Shown here: one piece after another, positions 36,653 through 53,761 of the stretch
How the letters are laid out: each line of letters starts with the position of its first letter
Numbering within the stretch: position 1 is the first letter of the stretch
Assembly (NCBI GenBank): GCA_025384855.1
Contig: JALAHT010000001.1
Span: 62,001 to 126,000 of the forward strand
Reading direction: 5' to 3'
Length of the DNA stretch: 64,000 nucleotides
Origin: Luteirhabdus salina
GTDB taxonomy: Bacteria; Bacteroidota; Bacteroidia; Flavobacteriales; Flavobacteriaceae
Notes under the pieces: model-generated
The model's input: only the letters and a program-made list of their open reading frames with translations
The model's database searches: none
What the model was told of the DNA's origin: nothing
Position numbers and translations under genes: made by a program

Positions 36653-36671
36653 AGTGTGGATTTCAATAGTG

Positions 36672-36679
36672 CAAAAATA
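36672..36679 (-). promoter_or_regulatory. -7 element TATTTTTG for purM
   Basis: Perfect TAnnTTTG on the minus strand, 19 nt before the ATG at 36652. Confidence 0.6.
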
Positions 36680-36680
36680 G

Positions 36681-36714
36681 GAATAAAAAAACGTCCTAGC
36701 ACTTAGGACGTTTT
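36681..36714 (-). terminator. Terminator of the csg operon
   Basis: An 11-bp perfect stem AAAACGTCCTA/TAGGACGTTTT with a 5-nt loop; the minus-strand side runs into a T tract. It lies 24 nt after the stop of the beta-propeller lipoprotein and before the purM promoter. Confidence 0.9.
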
Positions 36715-36737
36715 CTGTTTTTTAATCTATTATACTT

Positions 36738-38246: not shown

Positions 38247-38253
38247 AGCCCGA

Positions 38254-39669
38254 TCAGTTAATAAATTTGTCTTTTCGTTTGTTTCGTCCAAAGCCGAAGT
38301 GATAGTTAACCCCAAATCCTACATTATAGTAGAAGTCGTCTCTTTGCCCTTGTACCTCATTATCAATTTTATCAGAGAAAACCCGGTTTAATTCACCATT
38401 TAGTTCCATAGAAATTCTCTCTGAAAATTTGTACACCATCCCGACACCTGCTTTCACCTTAAAAAAGGTATCCAATTCCTGTAAAAATTTACTCGGTGAA
38501 TTATCTACAAAGGTCATGAACCCAGGACCAGCATATAGGATTGGACTAAGCTTATCATGTGGAAGTACTTTAAACTCAAGATTTACATTTTCAGAAAGCC
38601 AAAAATATCGCCTATTAGAATTAGAGAAAAGCCTAAAAAATTGGACATCGCCACGAATGGCAAAGGATGGGTTAAGATGATATTTATACCCTAGTTCTGA
38701 TTTGAAATCTGGTTGCTCATCAGCAAAATCGCCGTCGATGGTTGTGGCTCCTATCGCAAGACGTAAGGTGCTTTTATGATCATTTTCTTGATATTCTCGC
38801 CCATACAGCCCGGTAGCCTCTTCCATTTCTTTTTCAGCCAAATAGTTTTCGACAAGTTCCTTATTCTTTTCGGCGCCTTCTTTAGTTGACCAAAGCTTAT
38901 CTTTTATTCCTTCTACTATTAGACTTTCTACCGCTTTTTCAATGGCGGCTTTAACGGCGAGTTGTGTTGGCTCATTCTTTGTAAACCCGGTTTCTGCTTC
39001 TAGTAAACGCTGAAAGTTTACATAGCGGAAAATACCAGCATCTAACGCTTGCGAAAGAATTGTTTTGGAAACATATACGGTTTTGATAATCTCTCCAGTA
39101 GAGGTGGACACAGCGCGAAGATATACGGTAATTCGATCTTGTCTATACTGAACCGAACCGCCAACGCCAAAGTACCTAGCACCCGCTCCACCGGTAAGTA
39201 AGTTGGTGTCGTAAGAGATAATTCCCCCTTCCAATAAAATTCCCGCAAAAAGGAGTGGTTTGATTTTAGGAATATTGGCATTTGTTGCTTTTCTGTATTC
39301 ATCGCGGGTTGAACGTATGATATTTCGCTCGTTGGTAAGATTTTGAAGGTTTTCCCGTTCAACAGCTTTAAACCACTTTGAGTCCTCCAATGCCTTTATC
39401 AGGATAGTCGTGGCGCCCTGTGTTACAGCGGTACTAAACGTACTTGCTCCCTCAGACGGTTTGTACTGTCCAGTTTGATCTCTAAAATTGTAAACCCCTG
39501 CAACAATTGGCTCATTGGGCTCAGGCAAATCGTATAATGTCTTTGTCGCTTGCGTTATCTCACCAATCCTCGCGTCACCTTGCGAAACGGGTTGATTCCA
39601 ATAAGCCCCGCAACTAAACAGAAAAAAAGGCAGGGTCAATATTGCGACCTTTTTCAAAAGTTTCGTCAT
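38254..39669 (-). CDS. csgG: Curli secretion pore CsgG with extra C-terminal beta-barrel-like domain
   Basis: From the ATG at 39669 the protein has 471 residues; an upstream TTG at 39681 is possible but gives a poorer signal. The lipobox LPFFLFSC matches lipoprotein CsgG. Residues about 20-265 align throughout with E. coli CsgG: GVYNFRDQTGQYKPSE, FSTAVTQGATTILIKALEDSKW, ENLQNLTNERNIIR, GGIISYDTNLLTGGAGARYFG, VSKTILSQALDAGIFRYV. Then comes an extra portion of about 185 residues (from about 285) with eight alternating beta strands like a small outer-membrane barrel. E. coli CsgG ends at 277 residues. The stop of csgF overlaps or abuts this start (8 nt gap). Confidence 0.95.
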   Translation of the reverse strand: MTKLLKKVAILTLPFFLFSCGAYWNQPVSQGDARIGEITQATKTLYDLPEPNEPIVAGVYNFRDQTGQYKPSEGASTFSTAVTQGATTILIKALEDSKWFKAVERENLQNLTNERNIIRSTRDEYRKATNANIPKIKPLLFAGILLEGGIISYDTNLLTGGAGARYFGVGGSVQYRQDRITVYLRAVSTSTGEIIKTVYVSKTILSQALDAGIFRYVNFQRLLEAETGFTKNEPTQLAVKAAIEKAVESLIVEGIKDKLWSTKEGAEKNKELVENYLAEKEMEEATGLYGREYQENDHKSTLRLAIGATTIDGDFADEQPDFKSELGYKYHLNPSFAIRGDVQFFRLFSNSNRRYFWLSENVNLEFKVLPHDKLSPILYAGPGFMTFVDNSPSKFLQELDTFFKVKAGVGMVYKFSERISMELNGELNRVFSDKIDNEVQGQRDDFYYNVGFGVNYHFGFGRNKRKDKFIN

Positions 39670-39677
39670 AAGTACTA

Positions 39678-40082
39678 TCAATTTGGGACGATAATTTGAG
39701 TTTGCTCTCCCGTAGTTGTATCTAAAATATTTATTACCAGTCCTTCGTCCGATTCAAAAACCTCTAGCGATAAGGTTCCAAAATTAAAGGTTCCTTCCTG
39801 CAATCCTTCCTCCCCTAGCTGAGAAGTTAGGAGCGAGCGTGAAATTTGACTTAACAATTGTCTATTTAAGCTTTCGGCAAATTGATCTATCTCCGATTGC
39901 TCATTATCCTGAGCATTTGGATCCGTAAAAGAGTTCTGAGCATTTGCCGAACTCAATAACCATTGATAGTTAAAGGTATCGCCACCGAAATTAGGGTTCT
40001 TCGGCTCGTAAACCAATTGTTGCGCCATTCCTGTAATGCAGAAACCTAGCAATAAAAGGGTTAAGTAAACATTTTTCATCAT
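39678..40082 (-). CDS. csgF: Curli assembly factor CsgF
   Basis: Two adjacent ATG codons at 40082 and 40079 give 134 or 133 residues; the longer open frame to 40214 overlaps csgE and lacks a signal at its start. A signal peptide is cleaved after CITGMAQ. The mature N-terminus QQLVYEPKNPNFGGDTFNYQWLL.SANAQNSF is the CsgF signature that inserts in the CsgG pore and couples secretion to nucleation. A helical middle and a C-terminal beta hairpin follow. It starts 8 nt after csgE and lies 8 nt before csgG. Confidence 0.92.
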   Translation of the reverse strand: MMKNVYLTLLLLGFCITGMAQQLVYEPKNPNFGGDTFNYQWLLSSANAQNSFTDPNAQDNEQSEIDQFAESLNRQLLSQISRSLLTSQLGEEGLQEGTFNFGTLSLEVFESDEGLVINILDTTTGEQTQIIVPN

Positions 40083-40090
40083 CTTCCTAT

Positions 40091-40894
40091 TTAATATCGA
40101 ATAAGATTTTGTTGGTTTCTTTCCTTTAAAATAAAGTATCTTCGAACCCGTGCTATCGCAATATCCGACATTTGTTTTAAATAATCCAATTTTGTTCGGG
40201 CAAAAAATTGCCAAACCAATGTATTTCCAACGAGTACTTTAATTTTTGTACTACGTCCAAGCGCTGCTTCCTCTGTGATGGAAACCACTTCATCGCCCTG
40301 AATTTTTTCAAGTCTATAGGCCGAGGAGAACGCTACATAAAAATCGCGTCCTGCCTTTGTTTTCGTGTCTTCCGTTACCAATCCTCTAAACGACATTCCT
40401 CCGTCACTCTCATTGGCTTTAGCAGTATTCGACTGCGATTCCTGTTTTAACTTTTCCAATAAACGCATCTTCACGGCAATATCCGACGTTGAAGATTCGT
40501 CTGGATTCAGCTCAACTCTATCGCTTGCAACGACTTCATCATCTAAATTGTAAATAAGCAGCAGGAGTACAACATTCTGTTGGATATCGGAATTAACCGT
40601 TGTTTTAGCCAAGGTACCTTGTTGAAAGGGCTTTAACGTGAAACGAGCTGATTGATCATTTTTTGCAGCATTATTTAAGGAGTCTTTCTTTATAGTTGAA
40701 AAGACATAGCGAAGATTTTGAGGCACTTCCAGTTTATTTAAAACGGTTGCAGAAAAGGTCTTAAATTCCTGATTATCGGAAACTTCTATGTTAGCCTCTA
40801 TAGCATCATTGGCAGGTTCTTGCGCAAGGATTGAAGGTAATGCACAAAATAAGATACAGAACGTCATAAAAACGTTTGTAAACTTTAGAACCAT
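40091..40894 (-). CDS. csgE: Curli secretion specificity factor CsgE with N-terminal CsgH-like domain
   Basis: A 267-residue secreted protein; E. coli CsgE has 129. After the signal (to residue 25, PSILAQ) residues about 32-130 form a beta-sandwich-like domain with the pattern LRYVFSTIKKDS, an N-rich spacer, TLAKTTVNSDIQQNVVLLLLIYNLDDEVVASDRVEL, which resembles CsgH, a periplasmic curlin chaperone of alphaproteobacteria. A linker with Lys/Gln leads to the CsgE domain (about 170-267): GLVTEDTKTKAGRDFYVAFSSAY, VLVGNTLVWQFFARTKLDYLKQ, IARVRRYFI. CsgE caps CsgG from the periplasm. The N-terminal identity is inference. Confidence 0.88.
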   Translation of the reverse strand: MVLKFTNVFMTFCILFCALPSILAQEPANDAIEANIEVSDNQEFKTFSATVLNKLEVPQNLRYVFSTIKKDSLNNAAKNDQSARFTLKPFQQGTLAKTTVNSDIQQNVVLLLLIYNLDDEVVASDRVELNPDESSTSDIAVKMRLLEKLKQESQSNTAKANESDGGMSFRGLVTEDTKTKAGRDFYVAFSSAYRLEKIQGDEVVSITEEAALGRSTKIKVLVGNTLVWQFFARTKLDYLKQMSDIAIARVRRYFILKERNQQNLIRY

Positions 40895-40923
40895 AACATG
40901 ACAAATTTGGGGAATTGGTATTC

Positions 40924-41457
40924 TTAATTAAAATTCCGGATAATGATAGAGGAATCATCACCCTGCATATTCACTTTCAGTTTTTCTGAAATAGAATTGC
41001 TACCAAACCTTGTGAACGTCTGGTTATCGCCATCTTGAATAACCTCCGTACCGTGGTATTGAGACCGGAATACTCCGAAATCCATGAAAATATTATCATC
41101 ACCATTTTGTACCACTCGATTTTCTATGGTAGTGGCATTAAGGTTTAAATAAGAATAATTACGATCGCCCAATTGAATGATATCAACATCACTTTGTTGC
41201 GATTGTGTTCTTGAAACGGCCGTATTATAATCACCTACCTGGCGAATAAATACGCTATTCTCATCTTGAACAGCATTGTTTTGGTTTGCTCGTTGGGAGT
41301 TTTCTTGAGAAGCTAAAAAATTAAGGCGCGACTGGTTCGTATCGAAACTTGAGAGTTCTGTAGTTTCGGTAGCAGAATTGTCATTTTGAGCCATCCCGAC
41401 TGAGATTATGAACATGCAAATAACAATTGCGAAGTATTTTAAAATTGAAATTTTCAT
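40924..41457 (-). CDS. csgB: Minor curlin, CsgB-like nucleator
   Basis: From the ATG at 41457 it has 177 residues; the open frame further upstream carries no signal. The signal MKISILKYFAIVICMFIISVGMAQ ends near residue 24. A Ser/Gln/Asn-rich N-terminal part is followed by about five irregular curlin units (VFIRQVGDYNTAVSRTQ, VDIIQLGDRNYSYLN, NRVVQNGDDN, TEVIQDGDNQTF) ending LKVNMQGDDSSIIIRN. The units are less regular than in the large curlins and carry more Arg and Lys, as in CsgB. It heads the csgE-F-G operon (29 nt to csgE), suggesting it nucleates fibres. Confidence 0.8.
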   Translation of the reverse strand: MKISILKYFAIVICMFIISVGMAQNDNSATETTELSSFDTNQSRLNFLASQENSQRANQNNAVQDENSVFIRQVGDYNTAVSRTQSQQSDVDIIQLGDRNYSYLNLNATTIENRVVQNGDDNIFMDFGVFRSQYHGTEVIQDGDNQTFTRFGSNSISEKLKVNMQGDDSSIIIRNFN

Positions 41458-41566
41458 AGGTCGCTTATTTGTTGTTGAAAGATACAAATTATTCTTTAGA
41501 AGAATCGAGATTACGCTAGGTATTTTGCAGTTCTTCAACCTTGTATTCTTAGTTTTATAATGAAGC

Positions 41567-41593
41567 ATAAGGGCACTTTTTAGATGCCCTTAT
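41567..41593 (-). terminator. Hairpin after the 433-residue curlin gene
   Basis: A 9-bp stem ATAAGGGCA/TGCCCTTAT with a 9-nt loop, 57 nt after the stop; the T tract is weak, so it may be an attenuating hairpin. It overlaps the region upstream of csgB. Confidence 0.5.
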
Positions 41594-41649
41594 ACCCCAT
41601 TTAAATCAAATATTCCTGAAGGTTAATCCCTCACAAAAGGAATACAGGA

Positions 41650-42951
41650 TTAGTTATTTTGAATAACAGAAGAAATGTTTCCGTTACCAATTTGGTCTAC
41701 ATCACTGATGTGTCCGTTTCCTCCTTGGCCTACAGCACTTGTGTTACCGTTTCCTTGTTGAAGTACAGAAGAAACATGGTCGAAACCTACCTGTGCAACG
41801 GCACTAACGTTCGTATTCCCATCCTGCTCAACGTCAGAAGTGTTAGTATTACCTAACTGTAGAACAAGGCTGTTGTTATCAGCACCATCCTGTAAAACAG
41901 TACTTACGTTGTCATCACCTTGTTGCTGTACTACGCTAGTGTTGTTGGTTCCAATTTGGTCAACATCGCTATCGTTGTTGTTTCCGATTTGAGCAACACC
42001 TGAACCGTTAAGCGTTCCGATTTGGTCAACCATTGACATGTTGTCATCACCAGTTTGGACAACGTTCGAGTTGTTAGAATCTCCAGATTGAAGAACTCCA
42101 GAATCGTTGTTGTTTCCAGTCTGATCAACATTAGAGATATTAGTGTTACCATACTGCTCAACGATAGAATAGTTATCGTCACCAATTTGGTCTACAGTAG
42201 AAATGTTTCCGTTTCCAACCCATCCTTGGTATGTAAATGAAGTGTTGTCATTTCCGTCTTGGTTCGTAGAAGCATCGTTGTCGTCACCCCACTGATCTGT
42301 CCAAGAAATGTTGTCATCTCCGTTTTGGTCTACATCACTTTCGTTAGTATTACCAGTCTGCCATACATCATTGAAGTTATCATTTCCGTTTTGGAAAACA
42401 TTAGAGTCGTTCCCATCTCCTCCATCTTGATCAACGTCAGAGTAGTTAGAATCACCATTCTGCTCAACGTAAGAGTTGTGGTCGTTACCATCTTGGTCTA
42501 CTAGACTTGTATGGTTATTACCTTGATACCCTTGGAAAGTGTCAGAATTGTTATCGTTACCAGTCTGGGCAACATCACTTGTGTTGCTATCTCCCCACTG
42601 ATCTAGGTAAGCATCGTTACCATCACCATCTTGGTCTACTACAGATGAGTTTGAGTTACCATCTTGCCAAGAAAAGTTACCGTTGTCGTTACCGTCCTGG
42701 TCGATATCACTAACGTTATCGTTTCCTGTAGTACCTTGCCACAACGTAGATGCGTTATTGTCTCCATTTTGGTCTACTGTGGAAGTGTTGGTATCACCAT
42801 CCTGTAAAACGTAAGAATCGTTTGTCATACCAGTTTGGTTTACAGACGAGTTATTACCCGATCCGAACTGATCAACGTCACTGTTGTTCATTTGCGCGAA
42901 CAACGCTGCACTACACATTAGCGCCGCTGCGCTTAACATTACTTTTTTCAT
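41650..42951 (-). CDS. Large curlin A (433 residues, acidic CsgA-like amyloid subunit)
   Basis: A 433-residue secreted protein. Signal MKKVMLSAAALMCSAALFAQ, then almost only curlin half-repeats of about 11 residues, NxSxVxQxGxx. I count 37 of them, the last ending IQNN; three are longer and carry Trp or Tyr (WQGTTGND, FQGYQGN, YQGWVGNG). E. coli CsgA has 5 repeats of about 22 residues (10 half-repeats). In the mature part I see no Lys, Arg, Pro or Cys, so it is strongly negative. It begins with a repeat directly after the signal, without the CsgA N22 targeting segment. A box TACGTANNTACACGTA lies 251 bp upstream. Confidence 0.93.
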   Translation of the reverse strand: MKKVMLSAAALMCSAALFAQMNNSDVDQFGSGNNSSVNQTGMTNDSYVLQDGDTNTSTVDQNGDNNASTLWQGTTGNDNVSDIDQDGNDNGNFSWQDGNSNSSVVDQDGDGNDAYLDQWGDSNTSDVAQTGNDNNSDTFQGYQGNNHTSLVDQDGNDHNSYVEQNGDSNYSDVDQDGGDGNDSNVFQNGNDNFNDVWQTGNTNESDVDQNGDDNISWTDQWGDDNDASTNQDGNDNTSFTYQGWVGNGNISTVDQIGDDNYSIVEQYGNTNISNVDQTGNNNDSGVLQSGDSNNSNVVQTGDDNMSMVDQIGTLNGSGVAQIGNNNDSDVDQIGTNNTSVVQQQGDDNVSTVLQDGADNNSLVLQLGNTNTSDVEQDGNTNVSAVAQVGFDHVSSVLQQGNGNTSAVGQGGNGHISDVDQIGNGNISSVIQNN

Positions 42952-43194
42952 AATAGTTAAAAAATTTAGTTACTAATTGATTTATATTGGTTAAAATTTC
43001 CAAGTTAAGAAGCACTGTTTTTGTTTTTCATTCCATACAGTACATACCTATTCTTAGAATGCTTTGGTTCAAATGTTTCAAATAACGAATTATTTGGTAT
43101 AAAATATTTTGATTCGGGGATGTTGAGGAGAGTTGTGCTTCAAAGTTTGCTTTCAAACACATTTCAAATATGCGAAGAAATTTCAGATTACATA

Positions 43195-43210
43195 TACGTG
43201 TAACTACGTA
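43195..43210 (-). promoter_or_regulatory. Curlin box, copy A
   Basis: Reading the minus strand: TACGTAGTTACACGTA. It differs from the copies at 47037 and 49652 by one or two bases in positions 7-8 only. It lies 251 nt upstream of the ATG of curlin A. The two halves are imperfectly inverted, so a dimeric regulator is likely. Confidence 0.75.
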
Positions 43211-43631
43211 AGGCCTAGCGGTTAATAATTAAAAGTAAGTATTCTCCTACATATTTCTTTATAAGAATAAGACGTTATACCGAAAATATCGTTCAAATAC
43301 ATCACACATAGTAATATGAGTAAATGTTAATTATTTGTTAAAATTTTAAGATAATTTTGTAGGGTACTTCGCTCAGGCTTTAAATAGGAAAAACCCTGTT
43401 ATAAAAACCGAGCAACCACCCCCTAACAAACTGTAATATTGAATGTTAGAAAGAATACCTTTTCATAAAATACACCATAATTTCCAATGTTCTTACCATG
43501 TATTCTTATAATTACCTATCCACCCCTTTCGCATTCTTCATCTACCATTTCAAGTTTCAAAAACCAAGATTTCAGTTTTTCCATTTAGATCCATTTCTGG
43601 ATTTCTTGAAAAACGTTGTCAACCAAAGAAA

Positions 43632-43657
43632 AAGGCGCATCAAAATAGATGCGCCTT
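43632..43657 (-). terminator. Terminator of curlin B
   Basis: A 10-bp stem AAGGCGCATC/GATGCGCCTT, loop AAAATA, followed on the minus strand by a T tract; 65 nt after the curlin B stop. Confidence 0.9.
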
Positions 43658-43722
43658 CTAACATTCAAACCAAATAGGGAATGCAACAAAGTATATTGCT
43701 ACAGTCCTATTATTCTCAAATA

Positions 43723-46700
43723 CTAGTTTTCTTGATGAACAGTACTTATATTATTAGTTCCATTTTGAGTAACCGTACTCATGTGGTTTTCGCCATCTTG
43801 AAGAACATCACTTGTATTCCATTCTCCTGTTTGTGTTACTTCAGAAATATTCTGATCTCCAAATTGTGATACACGAGATACGTTATGGTCACCCGTCTGA
43901 AGCATCGTGCTCTCATTCAGGTTTCCTACTTGACCACCATCGATTAATACACCGGTGTTATTATTACCGTACTGCTCGATAGAATTCTCGTTGTTGTTTC
44001 CTTCAGATCGGGCATAGGCATTGTTATCATTACCTTCCTGAACAATATCAGATTCGTTCATGTTTCCAACTTGAGCTGTTTTGGCACTGTTGTCGTCTCC
44101 ACTAGTACGGATATAACTATTATTGTCATCTCCTACTTGAACAATCTCAGCAGTGTTATCATTTCCTATAATATTGATTCCTTCTCCTGGAAGAAAATCA
44201 TCGTTGGCATTGTTACGGTCGCCAAATTGACGAACATCAACATCGTTGCTATCGCCATTTACGTCGATTAGCATTCCATTGTCATCACCAACTTGCTCGA
44301 TATCGACCATATTAAAGTCGCTTCCACCACTTCCTGAAATTTCTGTAACTGAATTGTTGCGATCTCCAAGCTGAATAAGCGAAGTAGTATTATCACTTCC
44401 CCCGATACGAAGAATTCCGCGGTTATCATCACCGTCCTGATCTATATCAGAATCGTTGTTATTTCCGTTTTGGCGTACAGATGATAGGTTTGCATTTCCA
44501 GTTTGGTACACTTCAGCTGTGTTATCATCACCATTTTGGATGGTTTCCTCGTCATTCAAGTCACCTGTCTGGATTCCAACACTTCGGTTATCATTTCCAT
44601 TTTGGGTAATGGCTACATCGTTCATGCTTCCATTCTGGTTATGGTTACTGATGTTATCATCACCTGTTTGGGAAATTGTTCCCATGTTATCATCACCTTG
44701 ACGTTGGCGCAACTGACTGTTATTTCTGTCACCAGATTGATCCACATCGGCATCATGATCAGATCCACGCTGGAATACAAAACTATCGTTATCATCGCCA
44801 ACTTGATTCACATTGCTAGCGTCGTTAGTTCCCGCAGCTTGGTTTACACGAGAATCATTTCCATTACCTTCTTGATATACTACAGAACTATGATCGTTGT
44901 TTTGTTGCCATACATCAGAACTATTGCTGTCGCCAGTTTGGGTTACCATCGACTCGTTATTGTCGCCTTCCTGTAATTCTTCAGAAACGTTCATCGCACC
45001 TTGTTGGTCAACTACAGCACTATTCCCGTTTCCAGTTTGTGTTTGGAACACTACGTTATCGAGGCTAGTTCCAGCAAACGTCCCATCCTGATTACTATCG
45101 GCAAAGTTATTATCGCCCATCTGGGTTTGGGTAGCTTGATTGTTATCGCCTTGCTGTCTAGATGTAGCAACATTCTCATTTCCTGTCTGCGTTTGTGTCG
45201 CTTCAGAATTAGTCGTCGTGATGAGCTGACGCGCCGTGGCCATATTGTCATCCCCTGTTTGGGTTTGTATAATGGTATTGTCGGTCGTTCCAGCACCTCC
45301 ACCAGATCCTTGTACCGCCAGTGCATCGTTATCATCACCCGTTTGCAATTGGGTGATGGTGTTACGAGCGGCAGATGTCTGTTGTTCAGCATTTGCTACG
45401 TTATCATCTCCAATTTGGTCCTGATCGATATAATTTCCATCACCAAGTCCTAAGAAGCCACCGCCACCTTGGGTTGCATTGGCAAGGTTGTCATCTCCTT
45501 CTTGGTACTGATCTATTTCATTATCGGTACTATTGGTTGTTTGGAAGAATCCAGGGAATAGCTGCAATACGCGCCCTTGATTAGCATTAGCTTCATTACG
45601 ATCGCCAGCTTGTGTTTGCGTTACCGTATTGTCATCACCGATAGTTGTAGTTGTCGCTTCATTGAAGCTACCTGTTTGAGAAGTAGTCGCGGTATTTCCG
45701 TCAGAGCTAGCAGAAGAAGTTCTGGTATCACCTTGATTTATAATAGCAGCGTTGAAGTTTCCTTCTTGTGAAACAGTAGCATCGTTATCGTTTCCAAATT
45801 GGTTTACATCCGATTCGTTTCGTACGTTCGCTGCTCCTGCTTGCGTCACCGTTGCGGTATTATCATTCCCCAACTGATCTACTGTTGCTGTTTGAATAAC
45901 TCCGTCCTGCATTACTGTCGATGTATTGGAATCGCCTTCCTGGTTTACAGAAGAATCGTCCTGAACACCCGTTTGCGTAACGGAAGAAGTATTTAGGTCG
46001 CCATCTTGGTTTACAGAAGAAACATTTTGCGTTCCATCTTGAAATACATCAGAATCATTGGATGTTCCGTTTTGAACCACCATCGATTCGTTTGCACTTG
46101 AACCTTGTTCTACAATCGAGTTGTTTGAAGTTCCATCTTGGTCTACATCAGAGTCGTTTCCGATACCATCTTGGAAACTCGTTGAAATATTAGAATCGCC
46201 GTTTTGGTCGACATTCGCCATGTTTCCAATACCGCCTTGTTCGATGTCTGCATCGTTAGAAGTTCCATTTTGAACAGCGGTTGAAACATTGTTCTGACCT
46301 CCCTGCAAACTCGTTACGATATTTGAGTCGCCCGTTTGGGAAATATCGGAAGTATTGTTAATACCGGTTTGATCGACTTGTGAATCGTTCATATTTCCAT
46401 CTTGAACGACTGTCGTAGTGTGATCGAAACCACTTTGGTTTCCTACTGAAATGTTTTCGTCGCCCGTTTGGGTTACATCAGAATCCTGACGAAAGTCAGA
46501 TTGGTTTACATCGGCATCATTCGATGTGCCATCTTGCGATACAGTTGAAATATGATCGAAACCATTCTGGTTCACGTCACTCATATTTGTTGTACCCGTT
46601 TGGTCCACATCGGATGTATGGCCATCATTGTTTTGAAGCACTACCGATTGATTGCTGGTGCCGTTCTGATCTACTGTTGAATTGTTTTCGTCGCCATCTT

Positions 46701-46848
46701 GGTCGACATCAGAATTGTTTGTTATTCCCGTTTGGTTGACCGTGGAAGCATTATCGCTTCCCTGCTGATCAACAGCACTGGAATTGTTTTGGGCAAACAG
46801 ACATGTTGCGAACATGAAAGCTGCCACACTTAGCATTTTCTTTTTCAT
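43723..46848 (-). CDS. Giant curlin B (1041 residues)
   Basis: A 1041-residue secreted protein, signal MKKKMLSVAAFMFATCLFAQ. It consists of about 90 half-repeats of 10-13 residues. The N-terminal third is regular (NxSDVDQxG); the middle (about 380-580) uses the variant TQTQTGDxNxA with Gly-rich insertions and a LFPGFFQ loop; the C-terminal 215 residues match curlin D nearly unit for unit, including the FLPGEGINIIG insert. Its DNA has no long perfect tandem repeats, which argues against a recent array expansion. It is alone between a 453-bp regulatory region (curlin box at 47037) and a terminator. Presumably a major fibre subunit exported via CsgG. Confidence 0.93.
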   Translation of the reverse strand: MKKKMLSVAAFMFATCLFAQNNSSAVDQQGSDNASTVNQTGITNNSDVDQDGDENNSTVDQNGTSNQSVVLQNNDGHTSDVDQTGTTNMSDVNQNGFDHISTVSQDGTSNDADVNQSDFRQDSDVTQTGDENISVGNQSGFDHTTTVVQDGNMNDSQVDQTGINNTSDISQTGDSNIVTSLQGGQNNVSTAVQNGTSNDADIEQGGIGNMANVDQNGDSNISTSFQDGIGNDSDVDQDGTSNNSIVEQGSSANESMVVQNGTSNDSDVFQDGTQNVSSVNQDGDLNTSSVTQTGVQDDSSVNQEGDSNTSTVMQDGVIQTATVDQLGNDNTATVTQAGAANVRNESDVNQFGNDNDATVSQEGNFNAAIINQGDTRTSSASSDGNTATTSQTGSFNEATTTTIGDDNTVTQTQAGDRNEANANQGRVLQLFPGFFQTTNSTDNEIDQYQEGDDNLANATQGGGGFLGLGDGNYIDQDQIGDDNVANAEQQTSAARNTITQLQTGDDNDALAVQGSGGGAGTTDNTIIQTQTGDDNMATARQLITTTNSEATQTQTGNENVATSRQQGDNNQATQTQMGDNNFADSNQDGTFAGTSLDNVVFQTQTGNGNSAVVDQQGAMNVSEELQEGDNNESMVTQTGDSNSSDVWQQNNDHSSVVYQEGNGNDSRVNQAAGTNDASNVNQVGDDNDSFVFQRGSDHDADVDQSGDRNNSQLRQRQGDDNMGTISQTGDDNISNHNQNGSMNDVAITQNGNDNRSVGIQTGDLNDEETIQNGDDNTAEVYQTGNANLSSVRQNGNNNDSDIDQDGDDNRGILRIGGSDNTTSLIQLGDRNNSVTEISGSGGSDFNMVDIEQVGDDNGMLIDVNGDSNDVDVRQFGDRNNANDDFLPGEGINIIGNDNTAEIVQVGDDNNSYIRTSGDDNSAKTAQVGNMNESDIVQEGNDNNAYARSEGNNNENSIEQYGNNNTGVLIDGGQVGNLNESTMLQTGDHNVSRVSQFGDQNISEVTQTGEWNTSDVLQDGENHMSTVTQNGTNNISTVHQEN

Positions 46849-47036
46849 ACTTTAAATGAATATTAATTAATAATTCGATTAGCATGCCCAATTGGTAAAA
46901 CCAGGCAATAATTTAGAGGTGCCACCTTGTATAAAAAGCAGCCATAAACGCAATTTTTTCTTGAAGTTTTTTGTTAGATAGCAAAGGATAAACTCCGCTA
47001 TAACTTAAAGATGCAGAGAATAAAGAGGTTCTGAAA

Positions 47037-47052
47037 TACGTACTTACACGTA
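47037..47052 (+). promoter_or_regulatory. Curlin box, copy B
   Basis: TACGTACTTACACGTA on the plus strand, 197 nt upstream of the ATG of curlin B (46848). Its left flank shares TTCTGAAA and AATAAAGA with the copy at 49652. Confidence 0.75.
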
Positions 47053-47197
47053 GGGATAAAATAACTGTAGTAGAATACTTACATATAATTCATTATTGCG
47101 TTCAATTACGAGTAGCATCGATGAAGGGCAGGAAAGATTAACAGAAAGAAAAAGTTAAAATTTCAAGAAGTTTGACTTTGAAATTCATTCAAATAAA

Positions 47198-47230
47198 AAA
47201 CCAACCGAATGGCAAGCATTCGATTGGTTT
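47198..47230 (-). terminator. Terminator of curlin C
   Basis: A 14-bp stem with one mismatch (AAACCAACCGAATG with CATTCGATTGGTTT), loop GCAAG, T tract on the minus strand; 72 nt after the stop of curlin C. Confidence 0.88.
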
Positions 47231-47301
47231 CAAAAAAGCTATCCTTTATAATTCTCCTACTAACGGAGAAGGGTAGTTACACCCTAAAGGATTTATTTTG
47301 A

Positions 47302-48156
47302 TTAGTTACTCTGGAATACAGCTGAACCGTTTCCGTTTCCAATTTGGTCTACGGTGCTCATATGGTCTTCTCCTAATTGCAGAACACCGCTTGCATTTCC
47401 GTTACCATCTTGAAGAACAGTACTCATGTTTCCTTCACCTACTTGAAGAACACCAGAAAGGTTACCGTCGCCATTTTGCGTTACAGTACTCTCGTTTTCT
47501 TCACCGAACTGAGCTACTCCAGAAATATTCCCATTTCCTGTTTGGTACATTTCAGAACTGTTGTCCATACCGCTTTGGTAGGCACCTGCAACGTTACCGT
47601 CACCCGTTTGCTCAATTTTCGAGTAGTTGATTTCGCCTACTTGGTAAGAAGCAGCGACATTGCTATCTCCTATCTGATCGATATCGATTACGTTGTTAGG
47701 CTCAGTGCTTCCCGCGTCACCATCCTGGTTTGCGATTGCAAGGTTACCATTACCGTCTTGATCGATATTGGTAAGGTTCGAAGAACCTGTTTGGAATACA
47801 TCAGATACGTTATTGTCTCCCAATTGGTTTACAAACGCAATCTCGTCGTCCAATTCCTGAACAACATACGATTCGTTGTCGTTACCCTCTTGGTCTACAT
47901 ACGCTTCACTATTACGATTTTCACCGTTATCGCCATCATTCTGATCTACGAAAGAATAGTTAGACGTTCCATCCTGAGTTACCTCAGCCAAGTTCGAATT
48001 TCCATCCTGATCTACATCAGAATCGTTAGTAGCTCCAGTTTGTGATACGATAGCATCATGGTCGTTTCCGTTTTGGTCGACATCGCTATCATTCATTTGT
48101 GCAAACATGATCGTTCCACAGAACAAGGCTGCTGCACTTAATATTACTTTTTTCAT
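47302..48156 (-). CDS. Curlin C (284 residues)
   Basis: A 284-residue secreted protein, signal MKKVILSAAALFCGTIMFAQ followed by about 23 half-repeats. The N-terminal half is acidic and irregular (an EELDDEIAF unit replaces a canonical one, and a short insertion GSTEPNN is present); the C-terminal half is regular with NGNxSGVxQxGE units ending VFQSN. It follows curlin D by a 34-nt gap with no terminator between, so the two are co-transcribed. Only a few Lys, Arg and Pro are present. Presumed fibre subunit or length regulator. Confidence 0.92.
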   Translation of the reverse strand: MKKVILSAAALFCGTIMFAQMNDSDVDQNGNDHDAIVSQTGATNDSDVDQDGNSNLAEVTQDGTSNYSFVDQNDGDNGENRNSEAYVDQEGNDNESYVVQELDDEIAFVNQLGDNNVSDVFQTGSSNLTNIDQDGNGNLAIANQDGDAGSTEPNNVIDIDQIGDSNVAASYQVGEINYSKIEQTGDGNVAGAYQSGMDNSSEMYQTGNGNISGVAQFGEENESTVTQNGDGNLSGVLQVGEGNMSTVLQDGNGNASGVLQLGEDHMSTVDQIGNGNGSAVFQSN

Positions 48157-48190
48157 AATAAATTGCTCTTTATTTGGTTAAAAAATACTT

Positions 48191-49426
48191 TTAGTTGCTT
48201 TGGTGAACGTCACTCATATTATTGTTCCCCATTTGGTCTACTGTACTCATGTGGCTTTCTCCCTCTTGAAGAACATCACTTACGTTCCAGTCTCCAGTTT
48301 GAGTTACTTCAGAGATATTTTCATCTCCAAATTGAGAAACACGAGACGTGTTATGGTCACCTGTTTGAAGCATAGTGCTTTGGTTCAAGTCACCTACTTG
48401 TCCACCACCAATCAATACACCCGTATTGTGGTCTCCGTACTGCTCGATAGAGCTAGTATTGTTGTTTCCTTCAGAACGCGCGTACGCATTGTTGTTATCA
48501 CCCTCTTGAACGATATCAGATTCATTCATGTTTCCAACTTGTGCCGTTTTAGCACTGTTGTCATCGCCTGTTGTACGGATGTAACTGTTGTTATCATCTC
48601 CTGATTGAACGATTTCAGCAGTGTTGTCGTCACCAATAATGTTGATCCCTTCACCTGGAAGGAAATCATCGTTAGCGTTGTTACGATCGCCATACTGACG
48701 AACATCTACGTCGTTAAGGTCGCCGTTTACGTCGACCAACATTCCGTTGTCGTCGCCCACTTGATCGATATCAACCATATTGAAGTTACTTCCACCTGGT
48801 CCAGAGATTTCGGTAACAGAGTTGTTACGATCTCCAATTTGCTCAAGGGTAGTGATATTTCCATCGCCTCCAATTCTCAATACCGAACGGTTTAAGTCTC
48901 CCATCTGAGAAACTTCAGAATTGTTAAGGTCGCCACGCTGACGCAAATTTGAAAAGTTATCGTTTCCTTCAACCCAAGTATCGCCGAAGTTATCGTCTCC
49001 ATCTTGGTTTAGGATCGCTTCATTACCATCTCCGGTAATGTTTACACCTGCACCTGGTAAAAACTCATCACCTGCGTTGTTGTTGTTTCCGTCTTGGTCA
49101 ACGTCAACAATGTTAGAGTCACCACTAACATCTACTAAGATGTTGTTATCATCTCCTCCAAACTGATCAACATTCACTAGGTTGTCGTCGCTACCACCAG
49201 GAGAACCTGCTAGTTCAACAACTGAGTTGTGAGAAGTTCCTGTTTGATTTACAAATGTCCCGTTGTCGTCGCCAAAGGCACGAACTCTAGAACGGTTCTC
49301 ATCACCTGTTTGTGTTACAATGTTGTCATTGTCGTTACCGCTTTGAGTAACTTTACTGTCATTTGATTGTGCGAAGAGTGTCGCTCCACAGAATAATACT
49401 GCAGCACTTAGAATAACCTTTTTCAT
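48191..49426 (-). CDS. Curlin D (411 residues)
   Basis: A 411-residue secreted protein, signal MKKVILSAAVLFCGATLFAQ. Its half-repeats are more varied than those of A and B. It contains two copies of a roughly 100-residue block (about residues 73-175 and 205-305), each with a GPGGS/SPGGS loop, a VDQxGDDNxxLVDVxGDxN unit and an insert FLPGxGxNI(I/T)G. The C-terminal 215 residues match the end of curlin B. It is the first gene of the D-C transcript, with a curlin box 234 nt upstream. More Arg is present than in curlin A, so its charge differs. Confidence 0.93.
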   Translation of the reverse strand: MKKVILSAAVLFCGATLFAQSNDSKVTQSGNDNDNIVTQTGDENRSRVRAFGDDNGTFVNQTGTSHNSVVELAGSPGGSDDNLVNVDQFGGDDNNILVDVSGDSNIVDVDQDGNNNNAGDEFLPGAGVNITGDGNEAILNQDGDDNFGDTWVEGNDNFSNLRQRGDLNNSEVSQMGDLNRSVLRIGGDGNITTLEQIGDRNNSVTEISGPGGSNFNMVDIDQVGDDNGMLVDVNGDLNDVDVRQYGDRNNANDDFLPGEGINIIGDDNTAEIVQSGDDNNSYIRTTGDDNSAKTAQVGNMNESDIVQEGDNNNAYARSEGNNNTSSIEQYGDHNTGVLIGGGQVGDLNQSTMLQTGDHNTSRVSQFGDENISEVTQTGDWNVSDVLQEGESHMSTVDQMGNNNMSDVHQSN

Positions 49427-49651
49427 TGATAGATTTTAAATTACTAATTCGATTTAAATGTTTGAAATTCACACAGGACCTTCACACTGAGAAACAATCG
49501 CCGTTGCTCACAGTTCAGTTTTGTAAACTATTTTAAAGGCTTTAAGACACGAATGGTCTTTATGTAATGAGGAGTTATTTTTCGATTCTCAAGAGCTCTA
49601 GCTCCGTGCGAATTTCCTTTCAAAAATGTGAATAAAGATTGGCTTCTGAAA

Positions 49652-49667
49652 TACGTACATACACGTA
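49652..49667 (+). promoter_or_regulatory. Curlin box, copy D
   Basis: TACGTACATACACGTA on the plus strand, 234 nt upstream of the ATG of curlin D; flanking ATACGT and ACGTAT form a perfect inverted repeat with 6-nt spacing. Confidence 0.78.
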
Positions 49668-49826
49668 TGTCCTTGATTACCAACTACATATTGTAATCTA
49701 TTTCCTACATTTTTTAAGTTCTTGTCGATAAGCTGTTTCTATAAATCGACCAACCGCAAAAAAATTTAACAGGTTAAATTGTATTAAATAATTGTTAAGG
49801 CACTTCAAAATTCTAAACATTCCTAC

Positions 49827-49865
49827 AAAAAAAACCGTCATGAGTACATAACTCTGACGGTTTTT
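49827..49865 (-). terminator. Terminator of type III glutamine synthetase
   Basis: Stem AAAAACCGTCA-GAGT with ACTC-TGACGGTTTTT (one bulged base), T tract on the minus strand, 20-60 nt after the stop at 49885. Confidence 0.85.
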
Positions 49866-49884
49866 CCTACAGTTTTTAATGTAA

Positions 49885-52071
49885 TTACTTGGTAAACAGC
49901 AACTCACGGTATTTAGTAAGTGGCCAAATTTCATCGTCTACCAACAATTCAAGTTTATCGCAATGGTATCGAATTACTTCGAAGAATGGTTTCACCTCGT
50001 TACAATATTCTTTGGCACGTTTCTCAGCGTCTTCAATTTTGTTTGCTTTCTTCCGCGCTTCAATCATATCGGTAATACCTTTATTGATGTTAGCTATATG
50101 CTCTGAAATCTGTTCCACAAGATTCATTTGCTCTGTTGCATACGACTTGAAATCTTTTCCATAGATTTCTTTCAATCCACGAACATTCTTAATCAAAATG
50201 TTTTGGTATCGAATAGCCGTTGGTATTACATGGTTACGCGCGATATCGCCCAGCGTACGGCCTTCAATTTGGATACGCATGGCATATTCCTCCATCTCGA
50301 TTTCGTATCGCGCCTCCATTTCAACCTTACTCATAATATTAAGGTCTTCAAATAGAGAAATAGATTTCTTATCAATTTTCGCCTTTAAGGCTTCAGGAGT
50401 CGTTTTGTTATTGCTTAGACCACGTTTCTTCGCTTCTTTTTCCCAAGCTTCACCATATCCATCTCCTTCAAAACGGATTCGCTTACTATCTTTAATATAT
50501 TCACGCAACACGTTGAAGATCGCATCGTCCTTCTTCATTTTCTTCCCTTTAATAAGGCCATCTACTTCCTCTTTAAAGTCCTTCAATTGCTTTGCCATAA
50601 TCGCATTCATTACGGTCATCGGGTTTGCACAGTTGGCGTACGATCCTACGGCACGGAACTCAAATTTATTTCCTGTAAAGGCGAATGGCGACGTACGGTT
50701 ACGGTCGGTATTATCCAATAGAATCTCAGGAATTTTACCGACAACGTTCAATTTAAGGTCTGTTTTATCTTCTGGCGAAAGCTTTCCGCTCTTCACTTTT
50801 TCCAACTGATCGAGTACTGAAGTGAGCTGCGATCCGATAAAGGCAGAGATGATCGCTGGTGGTGCTTCGTTAGCCCCTAATCGGTGATCATTACTTGCAC
50901 TACCGATAGACGCTCTTAATAACTCCTCATATTCATTTACCGCTTTTAGGGTATTGATAAAGAAGGTAAGAAACTGTAAATTTTTCATCGGCGTGCTGCC
51001 AGGACCTAACAAGTTTACGCCAGTGTCGGTTGCCAATGACCAGTTGTTGTGTTTTCCACTACCATTTACTCCTGCAAAAGGCTTTTCGTGGAATAATACT
51101 TTAAAATTGTGGCGATCGGCAATTTTATCCATCACATCCATAAGGAGTGAGTTATGGTCAACGGCTAGGTTCGCTTCCTCAAAAATTGGAGCCAGCTCGA
51201 ATTGATTTGGTGCCACCTCGTTATGACGTGTTTTTACCGGAATACCGAGCAACATACACTCATTTTCCAAATCGCGCATATAATTAAGGACACGTGACGG
51301 GATCGAACCAAAATAATGATCATCCAATTGTTGCCCTTTTGCAGAGGAATGCCCTAAAAGCGTTCGACCTGACAAGGTAATATCGGGGCGAGACGACGCC
51401 AAGGCTTTATCTATCAAGAAATATTCCTGTTCCCATCCAAGGGTAGCATTCACTTTCGTAACGTTCTTATCAAAATATTTTGCAACAGCAGTTGCTGCCT
51501 TATCCACTTCTTGAAGCGCTCGAAGCAAGGGTGTTTTATAATCCAATGCTTCACCTGTGTAGGCTACAAAGATTGTTGGAATACATAAGGTCGTTCCATA
51601 TACGAATGCTGGAGACGTTGGGTCCCAAGCGGTATAACCACGTGCTTCAAAAGTATTTCGAATTCCGCCGTTAGGAAAACTTGAGGCATCCGGCTCTTGT
51701 TGAACTAGCTGTCCACCGCCAAATTTTTCGATAGCTTGTCCGTCGCCTGTTGTTTCGAAGAAGGCATCGTGCTTTTCGGCCGTCGCTCCTGTAAGCGGCT
51801 GAAACCAGTGTGTGTAGTGAGTAGCTCCCTTGCTAATAGCCCATTCCTTCATTCCTGTTGAAATGTGGTCGGCTACATCACGGTCTATCTTTTCTCCTTT
51901 TTCAATCGCAGCCATGACTGCATTGTAAGAAGATTTGGTAAGGTACTGACGCATGGCGCCTTGGTTGAAAGTGTTACTTCCAAAGACGGCTGAGCGTCTC
52001 TCCGCTTCCGTTACGAGTTGGGGTTTTCTGTTAAAGGTTTCTGCAATTGCTTTAAATCTAAGCGTTGCCAT
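49885..52071 (-). CDS. glnN: Glutamine synthetase type III
   Basis: A 728-residue enzyme, the size of GSIII from Bacteroidota. The N-terminal domain has the GSIII markers FNQGAMRQYL, HYTHWFQPLTG and KHDAFFE; TLGWEQEYFLID binds ATP and metal; KTRHNEVAPNQFELAPIFEEAN and GVNGSGKHNNWSL are catalytic segments; NRTSPFAFTGNKFEFRAVGS is the glutamate-binding loop. It forms dodecamers and assimilates ammonium. It is monocistronic, with a -7 element 27 nt upstream and a terminator downstream. Confidence 0.96.
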   Translation of the reverse strand: MATLRFKAIAETFNRKPQLVTEAERRSAVFGSNTFNQGAMRQYLTKSSYNAVMAAIEKGEKIDRDVADHISTGMKEWAISKGATHYTHWFQPLTGATAEKHDAFFETTGDGQAIEKFGGGQLVQQEPDASSFPNGGIRNTFEARGYTAWDPTSPAFVYGTTLCIPTIFVAYTGEALDYKTPLLRALQEVDKAATAVAKYFDKNVTKVNATLGWEQEYFLIDKALASSRPDITLSGRTLLGHSSAKGQQLDDHYFGSIPSRVLNYMRDLENECMLLGIPVKTRHNEVAPNQFELAPIFEEANLAVDHNSLLMDVMDKIADRHNFKVLFHEKPFAGVNGSGKHNNWSLATDTGVNLLGPGSTPMKNLQFLTFFINTLKAVNEYEELLRASIGSASNDHRLGANEAPPAIISAFIGSQLTSVLDQLEKVKSGKLSPEDKTDLKLNVVGKIPEILLDNTDRNRTSPFAFTGNKFEFRAVGSYANCANPMTVMNAIMAKQLKDFKEEVDGLIKGKKMKKDDAIFNVLREYIKDSKRIRFEGDGYGEAWEKEAKKRGLSNNKTTPEALKAKIDKKSISLFEDLNIMSKVEMEARYEIEMEEYAMRIQIEGRTLGDIARNHVIPTAIRYQNILIKNVRGLKEIYGKDFKSYATEQMNLVEQISEHIANINKGITDMIEARKKANKIEDAEKRAKEYCNEVKPFFEVIRYHCDKLELLVDDEIWPLTKYRELLFTK

Positions 52072-52097
52072 TTGTTATATTTTAAGGTTGAACGAAG

Positions 52098-52105
52098 CAA
52101 AAATA
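52098..52105 (-). promoter_or_regulatory. -7 element TATTTTTG for glutamine synthetase
   Basis: Perfect TAnnTTTG on the minus strand, 26 nt before the ATG at 52071. Confidence 0.6.
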
Positions 52106-52226
52106 AACTTTTTTAACCACCACCCCCTAAAATTTACTGTTAAGTTATTGATAAATTGAATTTAGCTGTTAATAACCCACCCGATAACACCCCTTGAACC
52201 GTAAAATTTCAATTCTATCCCAGAAT

Positions 52227-52249
52227 CACCCCTTTTTAAAATGGGGGTG
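52227..52249 (-). terminator. Weak hairpin after the Na/Ca antiporter gene
   Basis: Six-pair stem CACCCC/GGGGTG with an 11-nt loop, 2 nt after the stop; no good T tract, so termination is uncertain. Confidence 0.4.
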
Positions 52250-52251
52250 CT

Positions 52252-53205
52252 TTAGTAAATAAAAGCCAAACTAATAAAAATACCATACGCTACTACGATA
52301 AGAAGCCCTTTGAATCTTCCTATTTCAAAACGCTTCGGAAGAAATGCCAAAGGCAGCAAGACGGCTGCAAATCCAAGCATCCAAAAAATATCGCTTGATA
52401 CGACTTCTGGGCTCTTCGCAAAAATTGGCTGAATGAGCGATGTTATTCCAAGTACAGAAGCAATATTGAAAATATTAGAACCGATTAGATTCCCTAACGA
52501 GATAGCCTTTTCCTGTTTAGCAGCGGCAATAACCGATGCGGCCAACTCGGGAACACTCGTTCCTACAGCTATCATAGTGACGGCAATGACCCTTTCGGTA
52601 ACGCCCAAGGCCAATGCTAGATCTACGGCACCCATCACTAACAATTCCGATCCGCCCCAAAGCGCAACGCCACCTATAATGAGCCATATAATTATTTTGA
52701 AATTAGAAGTGTCGGAAAGACTATCATCTACTTCTTCAGAAGCGCCTTCCGCCTTACGCTGTTTTTTTGCACGTTGTAACAAGAAAAATAGATAGGCGAA
52801 TAAGGATAGCAGCAGCAGTCCTCCTTCCATCCTAGTGATATCGCCGCCATTCTTCAACAACATATAGAATAGGAGTGACAACAACATCATGGCGGGCCAA
52901 TTGAACTTATAAAAATCACGATCGATAGAGAGCGGGCCGATTAACGCTGTTACGCCGAGTACTAAACCAATATTCGCGATATTGGAACCGATTACATTTC
53001 CCAATGAGATATCCGAAAAACCATCAAGCGCGGCCTGAACACTAACCAATAATTCAGGAGCAGAAGTTGCAAACGATACGACCGTTAGTCCGATGACCAT
53101 TTTCGACAACCGTAGCTTGAAAGACAATCCCACGGAAGCGCGAACCAAAAACTCTCCCCCAACGACCAATAAAACCAGTCCGATAAATATAAACAGTATG
53201 CTCAT
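52252..53205 (-). CDS. Sodium/calcium antiporter, CaCA/YrbG family
   Basis: The ATG at 53205 gives 317 residues beginning MSILFIFIGLVLLVVGGE, the usual start; the open frame before it is not typical. Two inverted repeats are visible, each with the ion-binding alpha motif: SAPELLVSVQAALDG...SLGNVIGSNIANIGLVLG and SVPELAASVIAA...SLGNLIGSNIFNIASVLG. It exchanges Ca2+ for Na+ or H+ across the inner membrane. It diverges from the BlaI-type repressor gene, so the operators at 53339 could also affect it. Confidence 0.9.
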   Translation of the reverse strand: MSILFIFIGLVLLVVGGEFLVRASVGLSFKLRLSKMVIGLTVVSFATSAPELLVSVQAALDGFSDISLGNVIGSNIANIGLVLGVTALIGPLSIDRDFYKFNWPAMMLLSLLFYMLLKNGGDITRMEGGLLLLSLFAYLFFLLQRAKKQRKAEGASEEVDDSLSDTSNFKIIIWLIIGGVALWGGSELLVMGAVDLALALGVTERVIAVTMIAVGTSVPELAASVIAAAKQEKAISLGNLIGSNIFNIASVLGITSLIQPIFAKSPEVVSSDIFWMLGFAAVLLPLAFLPKRFEIGRFKGLLIVVAYGIFISLAFIY

Positions 53206-53338
53206 TTCAACTAATAAGGTAGCGAAGATACTAATTTGTAGCACCTTTTCCGAACACAAAGAAATTGGCTTTAAAACTAAAGAATGATGCAATAAATAGC
53301 TACAATAGCACAATAAAAACTACATTTTTCGTTATATA

Positions 53339-53372
53339 ACTACAGAATTAGTTGTATAACTATGAAAATAGT
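53339..53372. promoter_or_regulatory. Two BlaI-type operator dyads
   Basis: Two dyads ACTA-N6-TAGT at 53339-53352 and 53359-53372, with centres 20 bp (about two helical turns) apart. The half-sites extend to ATAACTA on the left. They lie 33 nt upstream of the BlaI-type ATG, as expected for autoregulation. Confidence 0.65.
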
Positions 53373-53404
53373 TTTATGTTTGAAGTCCAATTTTAATAAA
53401 ACAC

Positions 53405-53761
53405 ATGGAAAAATTGACCAATAAGGAAGAAGAAGTGATGCAGGCGCTTTGGAAACTTGGCAAGGCCTTTGTTAAAGAGCTAGTAGCAACGCTTCCTTCT
53501 GATAATCATTATAATACTATTTCGACCATTGTTCGAAATTTGGAGGAAAAAGGCTATGTTTCCTATAATGCTTATGGAAAAACGCATCAATATTATCCCA
53601 TTATAAGCAAGGAAGCGTATACAAGAACATTTATGCAGCATGCCATGAAGAAATACTTCAACAATAATTATATGAATGTTGTTTCCTTTTTTGCTGAAGA
53701 GGAAAAGATTTCTGCCGACGAACTGCGTGAAATTTTAGCCATCATAGAAAACAAGTCGTAA
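53405..53761 (+). CDS. BlaI/MecI/CopY-family repressor
   Basis: A 118-residue winged-helix repressor: LTNKEEEVMQALWKLGKAFVKELVATL, then the recognition helix YNTISTIVRNLEEKGYVSY, followed by a dimerisation domain. Its last base is shared with the next gene's ATG, so both are translated together. In this family the membrane partner senses an inducer and leads to repressor cleavage. The cleavage site is not obvious by eye. The two dyads upstream are the likely operator. Confidence 0.92.
   Translation: MEKLTNKEEEVMQALWKLGKAFVKELVATLPSDNHYNTISTIVRNLEEKGYVSYNAYGKTHQYYPIISKEAYTRTFMQHAMKKYFNNNYMNVVSFFAEEEKISADELREILAIIENKS

Follow-up and report, generated by a model that had tools for sequence, protein, structure and literature searches.

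Curlins differ widely in how many repeats they carry. A survey of 201,210 genomes describes curlin solenoids whose repeat numbers run as a continuum from 4 to 62, notes a degenerate class in which motif a or b is followed by insertions, and proposes that the solenoid monomer lengthens as repeats are added (PMC10192328). A later analysis gives 3-52 repeats (PMC12822426), and an earlier one, which also records curli systems in Bacteroidetes, up to 22 (PMC3521004). Here we describe a 1041-amino-acid (aa) CsgA-like curlin encoded at 43723..46848, minus strand, in a 64,000-nucleotide stretch of the Luteirhabdus salina genome (family Flavobacteriaceae; contig JALAHT010000001.1, positions 62,001 to 126,000); this whole stretch is the window, and all coordinates refer to it. 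With about 43 repeats the protein falls inside the published range, though it is long; it belongs to a known family, in which such a length is unusual. We propose, at a probability of roughly three in four, that it is a secreted curli subunit that would form one ~43-turn beta-solenoid, leave the cell through CsgEFG, dock with other curlins, and owe its length in part to gene fusion.

The described curlins offer several points of comparison. CsgA of Pontibacter korlensis (R15.5, PDB 8c50), also from the Bacteroidota, has the same half-repeat with inward N, Psi1, Psi2 and Q; it carries 15.5 repeats against ~43 here and is described as highly regular, and judged by that description it is without the module that we report below (PMC10192328). 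The longest surveyed curlin, WP_189563214.1, is likewise a long single chain and, compared by its description, exceeds ours with 62 repeats (PMC10192328). E. coli CsgA belongs to the same motif family, and the major curlin subunit structure 8enq was matched at E 8.6e-5. It has 5 repeats, a non-centrosymmetric core and an N22 targeting segment (PMC10192328), whereas the 1041-aa curlin has ~43 turns. E. coli CsgA proper, with an N22-like segment and ~5 repeats, is excluded as an identity for our protein by its 86 half-repeats, the first of which starts at residue 22.

The gene is a single unbroken open reading frame (ORF) of 1041 codons read from an ATG at 46848 to 43723; on the plus strand of the same interval, frame 1 is interrupted by stops and the other frames are shorter. 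The product matches a sole Pfam family, Curlin_rpt (PF07012; E 3.1e-88; 14 stretches scoring 289.8 bits, the cut-off being 20.7), contains the tandem N-x-Psi-x-Psi-x-Q-x-G-x-x units expected of curlins, and aligns by sequence with the solved curlin 8c50 (E 2.1e-39, best stretch 121-353). A position-specific parser, trained on the window's four curlins with the 1041-aa protein among them, found 86 eleven-residue half-repeats, or ~43 turns, spaced by exactly 11 residues in 70 of 85 cases; it set unit 36 five residues off, the correct place being residue 418. Across 200 shuffles of the protein the counts never exceeded 16 half-repeats and 2 exact spacings. As curlins are expected to, the gene shares its strand and its neighbourhood with csgG, csgF and csgE, and the curlin identity of the protein is well supported. 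An earlier note, made from this DNA sequence alone, had called it a 1041-residue curlin of about 90 half-repeats; the reading frame, family match and csg cluster confirm the name, and the count agrees to within 5%, with 43 turns a better figure than 45. The same note described the protein as almost wholly NxSxVxQxGxx, which holds for a relaxed motif only, the strict unit N-x-[ST]-x-[VI]-x-Q-x-[GD] being found just 22 times (shuffles: mean 0.06, maximum 2 in 1000). The protein passes the PRK10051 CsgA equivalog model in bits (230.1 vs 160, 10 stretches), and the CsgB model scores it still higher (319.7 vs a cut-off of 165, 14 stretches), so the equivalog name is uninformative for so long a repeat protein.

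Along the chain, a signal-peptide-like N-terminus, MKKKMLSVAAFMFATCLFAQ (residues 1-20; 46789..46848, minus), was read by eye from the translation and has a helix at 4-13 in the AlphaFold model. It precedes a mostly regular array of 30 parsed half-repeats (residues 21-354; 45787..46788, minus), a loop-bearing 'TQTQ' module that four genera share in conserved form (residues 355-619; 44992..45786, minus), and a C-terminal part, residues 620-1041 (43726..44991, minus). Residues 831-977 also carry inserts; outside these and the module the protein is mainly regular. The Gly-rich inserts that the earlier note had seen are present at about 461-471 and 514-523. The mature chain is 107 kDa.

Luteirhabdus pelagi has the same gene layout from glnS to csgG (locus L009), and a further genome of the genus, G001, has the same arrangement from glnS to purM; these two count as one comparison, so that conservation here means that of one species pair. 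The L. pelagi orthologue is also 1041 aa long and 95% identical (991/1041 residues, or 992/1042 with the stop included), with 50 residues changed and no change of length. The rates of synonymous and nonsynonymous substitution are dS 0.275 and dN 0.024, giving dN/dS 0.087; the corresponding ratios are 0.077 for the 433-aa curlin of the cluster, 0.017 for its 284-aa curlin, 0.016 for CsgG and 0.010 for a 728-aa glutamine-synthetase-like neighbour named by eye. Inward positions of the half-repeats (N, Psi1, Psi2, Q) changed in 7 of 344 cases against 19 of 258 outward positions (Fisher p 0.002 in this one pair), with the positions picked by the curlin motif itself. Fewest changes at inward positions is what a solenoid model predicts.

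AlphaFold2 on the full-length protein gave a best model with a mean predicted local distance difference test score (pLDDT) of 80.8 and a predicted template modelling score (pTM) of 0.62, in which a strand recurs about every 11 residues from 21 to 1040; confidence is low in the signal region and at 427-440, 463-468 and 886-888, the last three lying in inserts. The best model of a fragment spanning the module (residues 330-649) reached pLDDT 71.4 and pTM 0.69, again with low stretches at inserts. When structures were realigned to the module model with VIA-align 2, the highest Z belonged to the P. korlensis curlin 8c50 (27.0 over 260 residues; root-mean-square deviation, rmsd, 8.4 A). One solenoid turn per two half-repeats is thus supported by prediction. 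The rod would be about 20 nm long, by the arithmetic of 43 turns at the published 4.8 A per turn. The earlier note had proposed a solenoid with one turn per pair of units: strands throughout the model and the Z of 27.0 favour it, and Foldseek alone lends it no significant match. Its further suggestion, that each molecule would be a pre-formed protofilament, calls for caution, since curlins are held to pass CsgG unfolded and the rod could then form only after export. In the note's view such a molecule may also change nucleation and length control.

We infer the following route. The protein would be exported by Sec and then pass, unfolded, through the CsgE-CsgF-CsgG channel encoded in its own cluster. 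Curlins are held to pass CsgG unfolded (PMC10192328, PMC7304575), the eyelet of the E. coli channel measures ~12 A (PMC7304575), and CsgE is proposed to confine the substrate in the CsgG chamber (PMC6957492). The mature chain is ~8 times the mass of E. coli CsgA (13.1 kDa; PMC10192328), so enclosure of the whole 1041-aa curlin in the CsgE-capped chamber seems unlikely, and its export would then have to be progressive; a volume for the CsgG-CsgE chamber was not found in the passages of PMC7304575 and PMC6050966. Once outside the cell the chain would fold at one turn per two half-repeats into a rigid ~20-nm rod, a single solenoid to which residues 355-619 also belong, and its end repeats, being of the same type as those of the other curlins, would let it dock with them end to end. 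With shorter relatives in the same cluster, a subunit of this size and of exactly kept length would let the influence of curlin length on nucleation, elongation and export be tested in a natural setting, and it bears on the substrate-confinement idea for CsgE (PMC6957492).

Several results weigh against this proposal. The five full-length models disagree (pLDDT 80.8, 80.4, 68.5, 57.5 and 51.7), as do those of the module fragment (71.4, 63.9 and three near 30), and the alignments behind them are shallow, with 8 and 2 rows. Foldseek alone returned no PDB match at E<=0.001 for either the full-length or the module model, and in its search with the module model 8c50 ranked 14th, at E 4.7. After realignment the next structure behind 8c50 was a beta-helical antifreeze protein (Z 19.7, rmsd 2.7 A, 240 residues), followed by other beta-helices; the 14 chains set against the full-length model were other beta-helices and repeat proteins and did not include 8c50. 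Sparse alignments can yield right-handed models of left-handed curlins (PMC10192328), and the good fit of the module model to other beta-helices may be an artefact of this kind. The conservation test rests on a single species pair. The gene's expression, and the secretion of its product and its incorporation into fibres, are presumed. Sites resembling intrinsic terminators number 8 in our scan against a shuffle mean of 9.1, so the weight of the two hairpins described below lies in their position and conservation, and promoter-like sites are no commoner in the region than in shuffles.

The C-terminal part bears on how the protein came to be so long. Residues 619-1041 are 78% identical to a 443-aa curlin of L. 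pelagi over practically the whole mature length of the latter; its counterpart in the window, the neighbouring 411-aa curlin, matches residues 761-1041 at 77%. The 443-aa protein matches nearly whole, and the 1041-aa protein therefore looks like a complete curlin fused to the end of another before the two species split, so that its length appears to be due in part to fusion of curlin genes. In 7 of 8 segments of 60 columns each long protein has the other as its nearest relative, ahead of both paralogues; in columns 300-359 there is little to choose between the copies (55-57 of 60), perhaps because they exchanged sequence later. Part of the N-terminal half of the 411-aa curlin, which is rearranged relative to the 443-aa gene, matches residues 785-909 at 54%. 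Recent slippage of DNA repeats was considered and rejected for the 1041-aa gene: no tandem array above threshold lies within it, and the two that were reported fall in the 433-aa gene.

Such a history leaves room for length to be neutral, the gene having grown by fusion or recombination into a 1041-residue curlin functionally equal to one of 400 residues. This is the strongest of the competing explanations, and we hold it to be rather less probable than our own, with odds clearly short of even. The duplication of a neighbouring curlin fits it, as do the published continuum of 4-62 repeats (PMC10192328) and the range of 240-1041 aa among 74 complete curlins that we collected. The two 1041-aa orthologues are the longest of that set and the next has 758 aa, in a sample biased by the fetching of most loci by similarity to the 1041-aa protein and by several members from one genome. 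Lengths were taken from complete ORFs because an open-frame column can join genes across stops; whole-genome open-frame lengths (up to 1191 aa) were dropped as a length survey, since the genes concerned in genomes G293 and G206 are really ~500 aa each. Neutral growth sits less well with the exact length kept between two species at dS 0.275 and dN/dS 0.087 while the adjacent 411/443-aa paralogue was rearranged, an argument that concerns two species only and is tempered by the 433-aa and 284-aa curlins, which likewise have the same length in L. pelagi.

The chain also ends as other curlins do. Sixty of the 74 complete curlins end in two half-repeats with the stop within six residues, and in 49 of them an H takes the place of the initial N of the penultimate half-repeat, as against 68 of 1015 interior half-repeats; the set is biased and includes paralogues of one genome, so a p-value for this difference is not to be taken at face value. 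The 1041-aa curlin has the same H-type end (43726-43785, minus). The H-start half-repeat is possibly a conserved C-terminal cap, and the shared signature supports a common end for long and short curlins, as end-to-end docking would need; we infer that the 1041-aa curlin could dock with other curlins in this way.

The earlier note had also picked out a middle section of TQTQTGDxN type at about residues 380-580. The section is real, and the conserved module around it is better bounded at 355-619. This module aligns with curlins of three other genera (genomes G279, G040 and G074) at 56-63% identity with one short gap, loops included. A profile search at E<=1e-30 found it in 5 of 299 Flavobacteriaceae genomes, from 4 of 236 genera, in one copy each; these five are the genomes that seeded the profile, and no further carriers appeared among the 299. 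The next best match at a threshold of 1e-6 scored 68 bits against 413-451 for the carriers, a gap that makes the module a discrete unit, and across the phylum only the source genome was positive among 395 genomes; both sets are samples from larger groups. Genomes G064 and G284, congeners of two carriers, were not among the matches, their inclusion in the 299-genome search being presumed from an equal sample size. The module's place in the chain is variable: 54 residues precede it in the proteins of 533 and 558 aa, 299 in the 758-aa protein and 354 in the 1041-aa curlin. Module identity to the G279 copy (63%) resembles that of CsgG (65%) and CsgF (68%), which leaves vertical descent with loss as a possible alternative to horizontal transfer.

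Within the module, the half-repeats of 407-598 alternate strictly between one type with Psi1/Psi2 = I/V/A + Q and a second with A + A/S. Six inserts occur in this stretch, each only after the second, small-residue strand, and the loops should therefore exit at the same edge; one additional insert follows the half-repeat at 366, ahead of the alternating stretch. The fibre would thus show, along one edge of this stretch, a row of loops plausibly used in binding or lateral contact. A Psi2 glutamine is not specific to the module, as at least three half-repeats of this kind occur in 17 of 74 curlins. The stretch shows the features by which the degenerate (D) class is defined, namely inserts after motif a or b and/or incomplete motifs (PMC10192328). 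The D-class curlin A0A0S1S4K2 of Sediminicola sp. YIK13 resembles the module in its Arc-2 insertions and its departures in the N and Q columns; it is a 10-stranded solenoid, and the likeness is drawn from its description (PMC10192328). We found no published description of the TQTQ module among the open-access papers returned by our literature searches, none of which named the module's own sequence. Tentatively, and against the odds as we see them, the module may be a dedicated modular fibre element with a glutamine ladder facing small residues and one-sided conserved loops, kept whole while the flanking ordinary repeats are gained, lost or fused, and displaying a ~4 nm binding or cross-linking patch at a fixed place in the 20-nm rigid subunit. 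It is also a candidate natural scaffold for loop display on amyloid fibres.

A related explanation makes the whole protein a minor, specialised subunit, with the module as nucleator, anchor or adhesive element that the repeats merely position. The single copy of the module in each of 5 carriers speaks for this, beside several ordinary curlins in both csg clusters that were read (the window and G279, where the module-bearing gene lies within the cluster), and so does the persistence of the module and its loops at 56-63% between genera while the host proteins vary among 533, 558, 758 and 1041 aa; the 1041-aa gene moreover has its own upstream site and terminator-like hairpins, described below. 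Within the genus, however, the module is no better conserved than the rest, with 15 of 265 residues differing from L. pelagi against 17 of 334 in residues 21-354 and 18 of 422 in 620-1041. Its absence from 294 of 299 family genomes at E<=1e-30 argues against a general nucleator, two carriers (G040 and G074) have the module gene in a 20-kb stretch (L069, L070) that holds no other csg genes, and the upstream site is missing from the module-bearing genes in the other three genera. On balance we regard this explanation as doubtful, a little more so than neutral length. That the protein is a solenoid adhesin or other beta-helix protein merely resembling curlins is very improbable: Foldseek's weak hits do consist largely of beta-helix enzymes, tailspikes, autotransporters and leucine-rich repeats, and the rmsd to the module model is lower for the antifreeze protein than for the curlin, but against it stand the matches to curlin models in Pfam and NCBIfam, the csg cluster, the motif's N and Q positions, the sequence match to a solved curlin, a curlin as the highest-Z structure and the curlin-type C-terminus.

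The proposed curli subunit is one of a group of csg genes on the minus strand. Upstream of it lie two paralogues, of 411 aa (48191..49426; PF07012 E 2.2e-45), which shares its C-terminal part, and 284 aa (47302..48156; PF07012 E 4e-39). Downstream, in order, come a 433-aa curlin (41650..42951; PF07012 E 2.9e-45), a small curlin-like gene, csgE, csgF and csgG. The small gene (40924..41568) encodes 214 aa or fewer and matches the CsgA model at E 8.7e-6, with 25.7 bits against a cut-off of 160, and no Pfam family; it is possibly a nucleator. CsgF (39678..40214; PF10614 E 6.7e-39) is listed as an ORF from an upstream TTG, and its true start is probably an internal ATG giving ~134 aa, the length of its relative in G001.

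Signals around the 1041-aa gene suggest that it is transcribed separately. Between it and the 284-aa gene lies an intrinsic-terminator-like hairpin of 15 pairs with a T tail (47197..47231, minus) that is kept in L. pelagi, and downstream of it another of 12 pairs, 6 of them G-C (43630..43659, minus), whose stem is intact and loop changed in that species. A pattern search located an inverted-repeat site, TACGTGTAAGTACGTA, 204 bases upstream of the start codon (47037..47052, minus), also present in L. pelagi, with the same site upstream of the 433-aa curlin (43195..43210, plus) and of the 411/284-aa pair (49652..49667, minus). The offsets of these TACGTGTANNTACGTA sites are about -204, -259 and -241, for the 1041-aa gene, the 433-aa gene and the pair respectively, and the L. 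pelagi locus has the site three times. At <=3 mismatches the whole window contains just these three (0, 0 and 1 mismatch), and 13 of 100 shuffles had at least three at that tolerance, for a pattern derived from two of the three window sites. Independent support comes from another genus: in the csg cluster of G279, a site with 0-2 mismatches lies within 600 bases upstream of 6 of 11 curlin genes. On the other side, it is lacking upstream of the module-bearing genes in G279, G040 and G074 and in most other regions among 31 scanned, and one locus, L075, has one good match. A common regulator of the three curlin units is thereby suggested, on sequence grounds, and the 1041-aa gene looks like its own transcription unit. 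No known RNA elements reached threshold in 36000-54000, and a Bacteroidota-type promoter pattern had no match in the curlin region and a window total not above shuffles. Unusual conservation of the intergenic regions beside the gene was considered and ruled out: they are 95.3% and 97.4% identical to L. pelagi, comparable with other short intergenic stretches (93.3%, and 98.8% twice), while the region upstream of the 411-aa gene has 81.9%.

CsgG (38254..39681, minus; PF03783 E 9.8e-67) ends in a domain resembling an outer-membrane beta-barrel (residues 298-462; PF13505 E 3.8e-8), with weak similarity to PorG; E. coli CsgG is not known to have such a domain. Two other genera have CsgG genes, of 501 and 490 aa, that align with it over 467 and 474 residues. 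CsgE (40091..40894, minus; PF10627 E 5.4e-10) has 267 aa with its family match confined to 170-261, hence a long N-terminal extension, and has 267-aa relatives in two other genera. The source genome has one more curlin gene, of 379 aa, outside the csg cluster (L077, 9101-10240). Nearby are a MAELI... gene and one that by eye looks helicase-like; relatives of these same two genes lie near the module-bearing 758-aa curlin of G040 (L069, 9085-11361).

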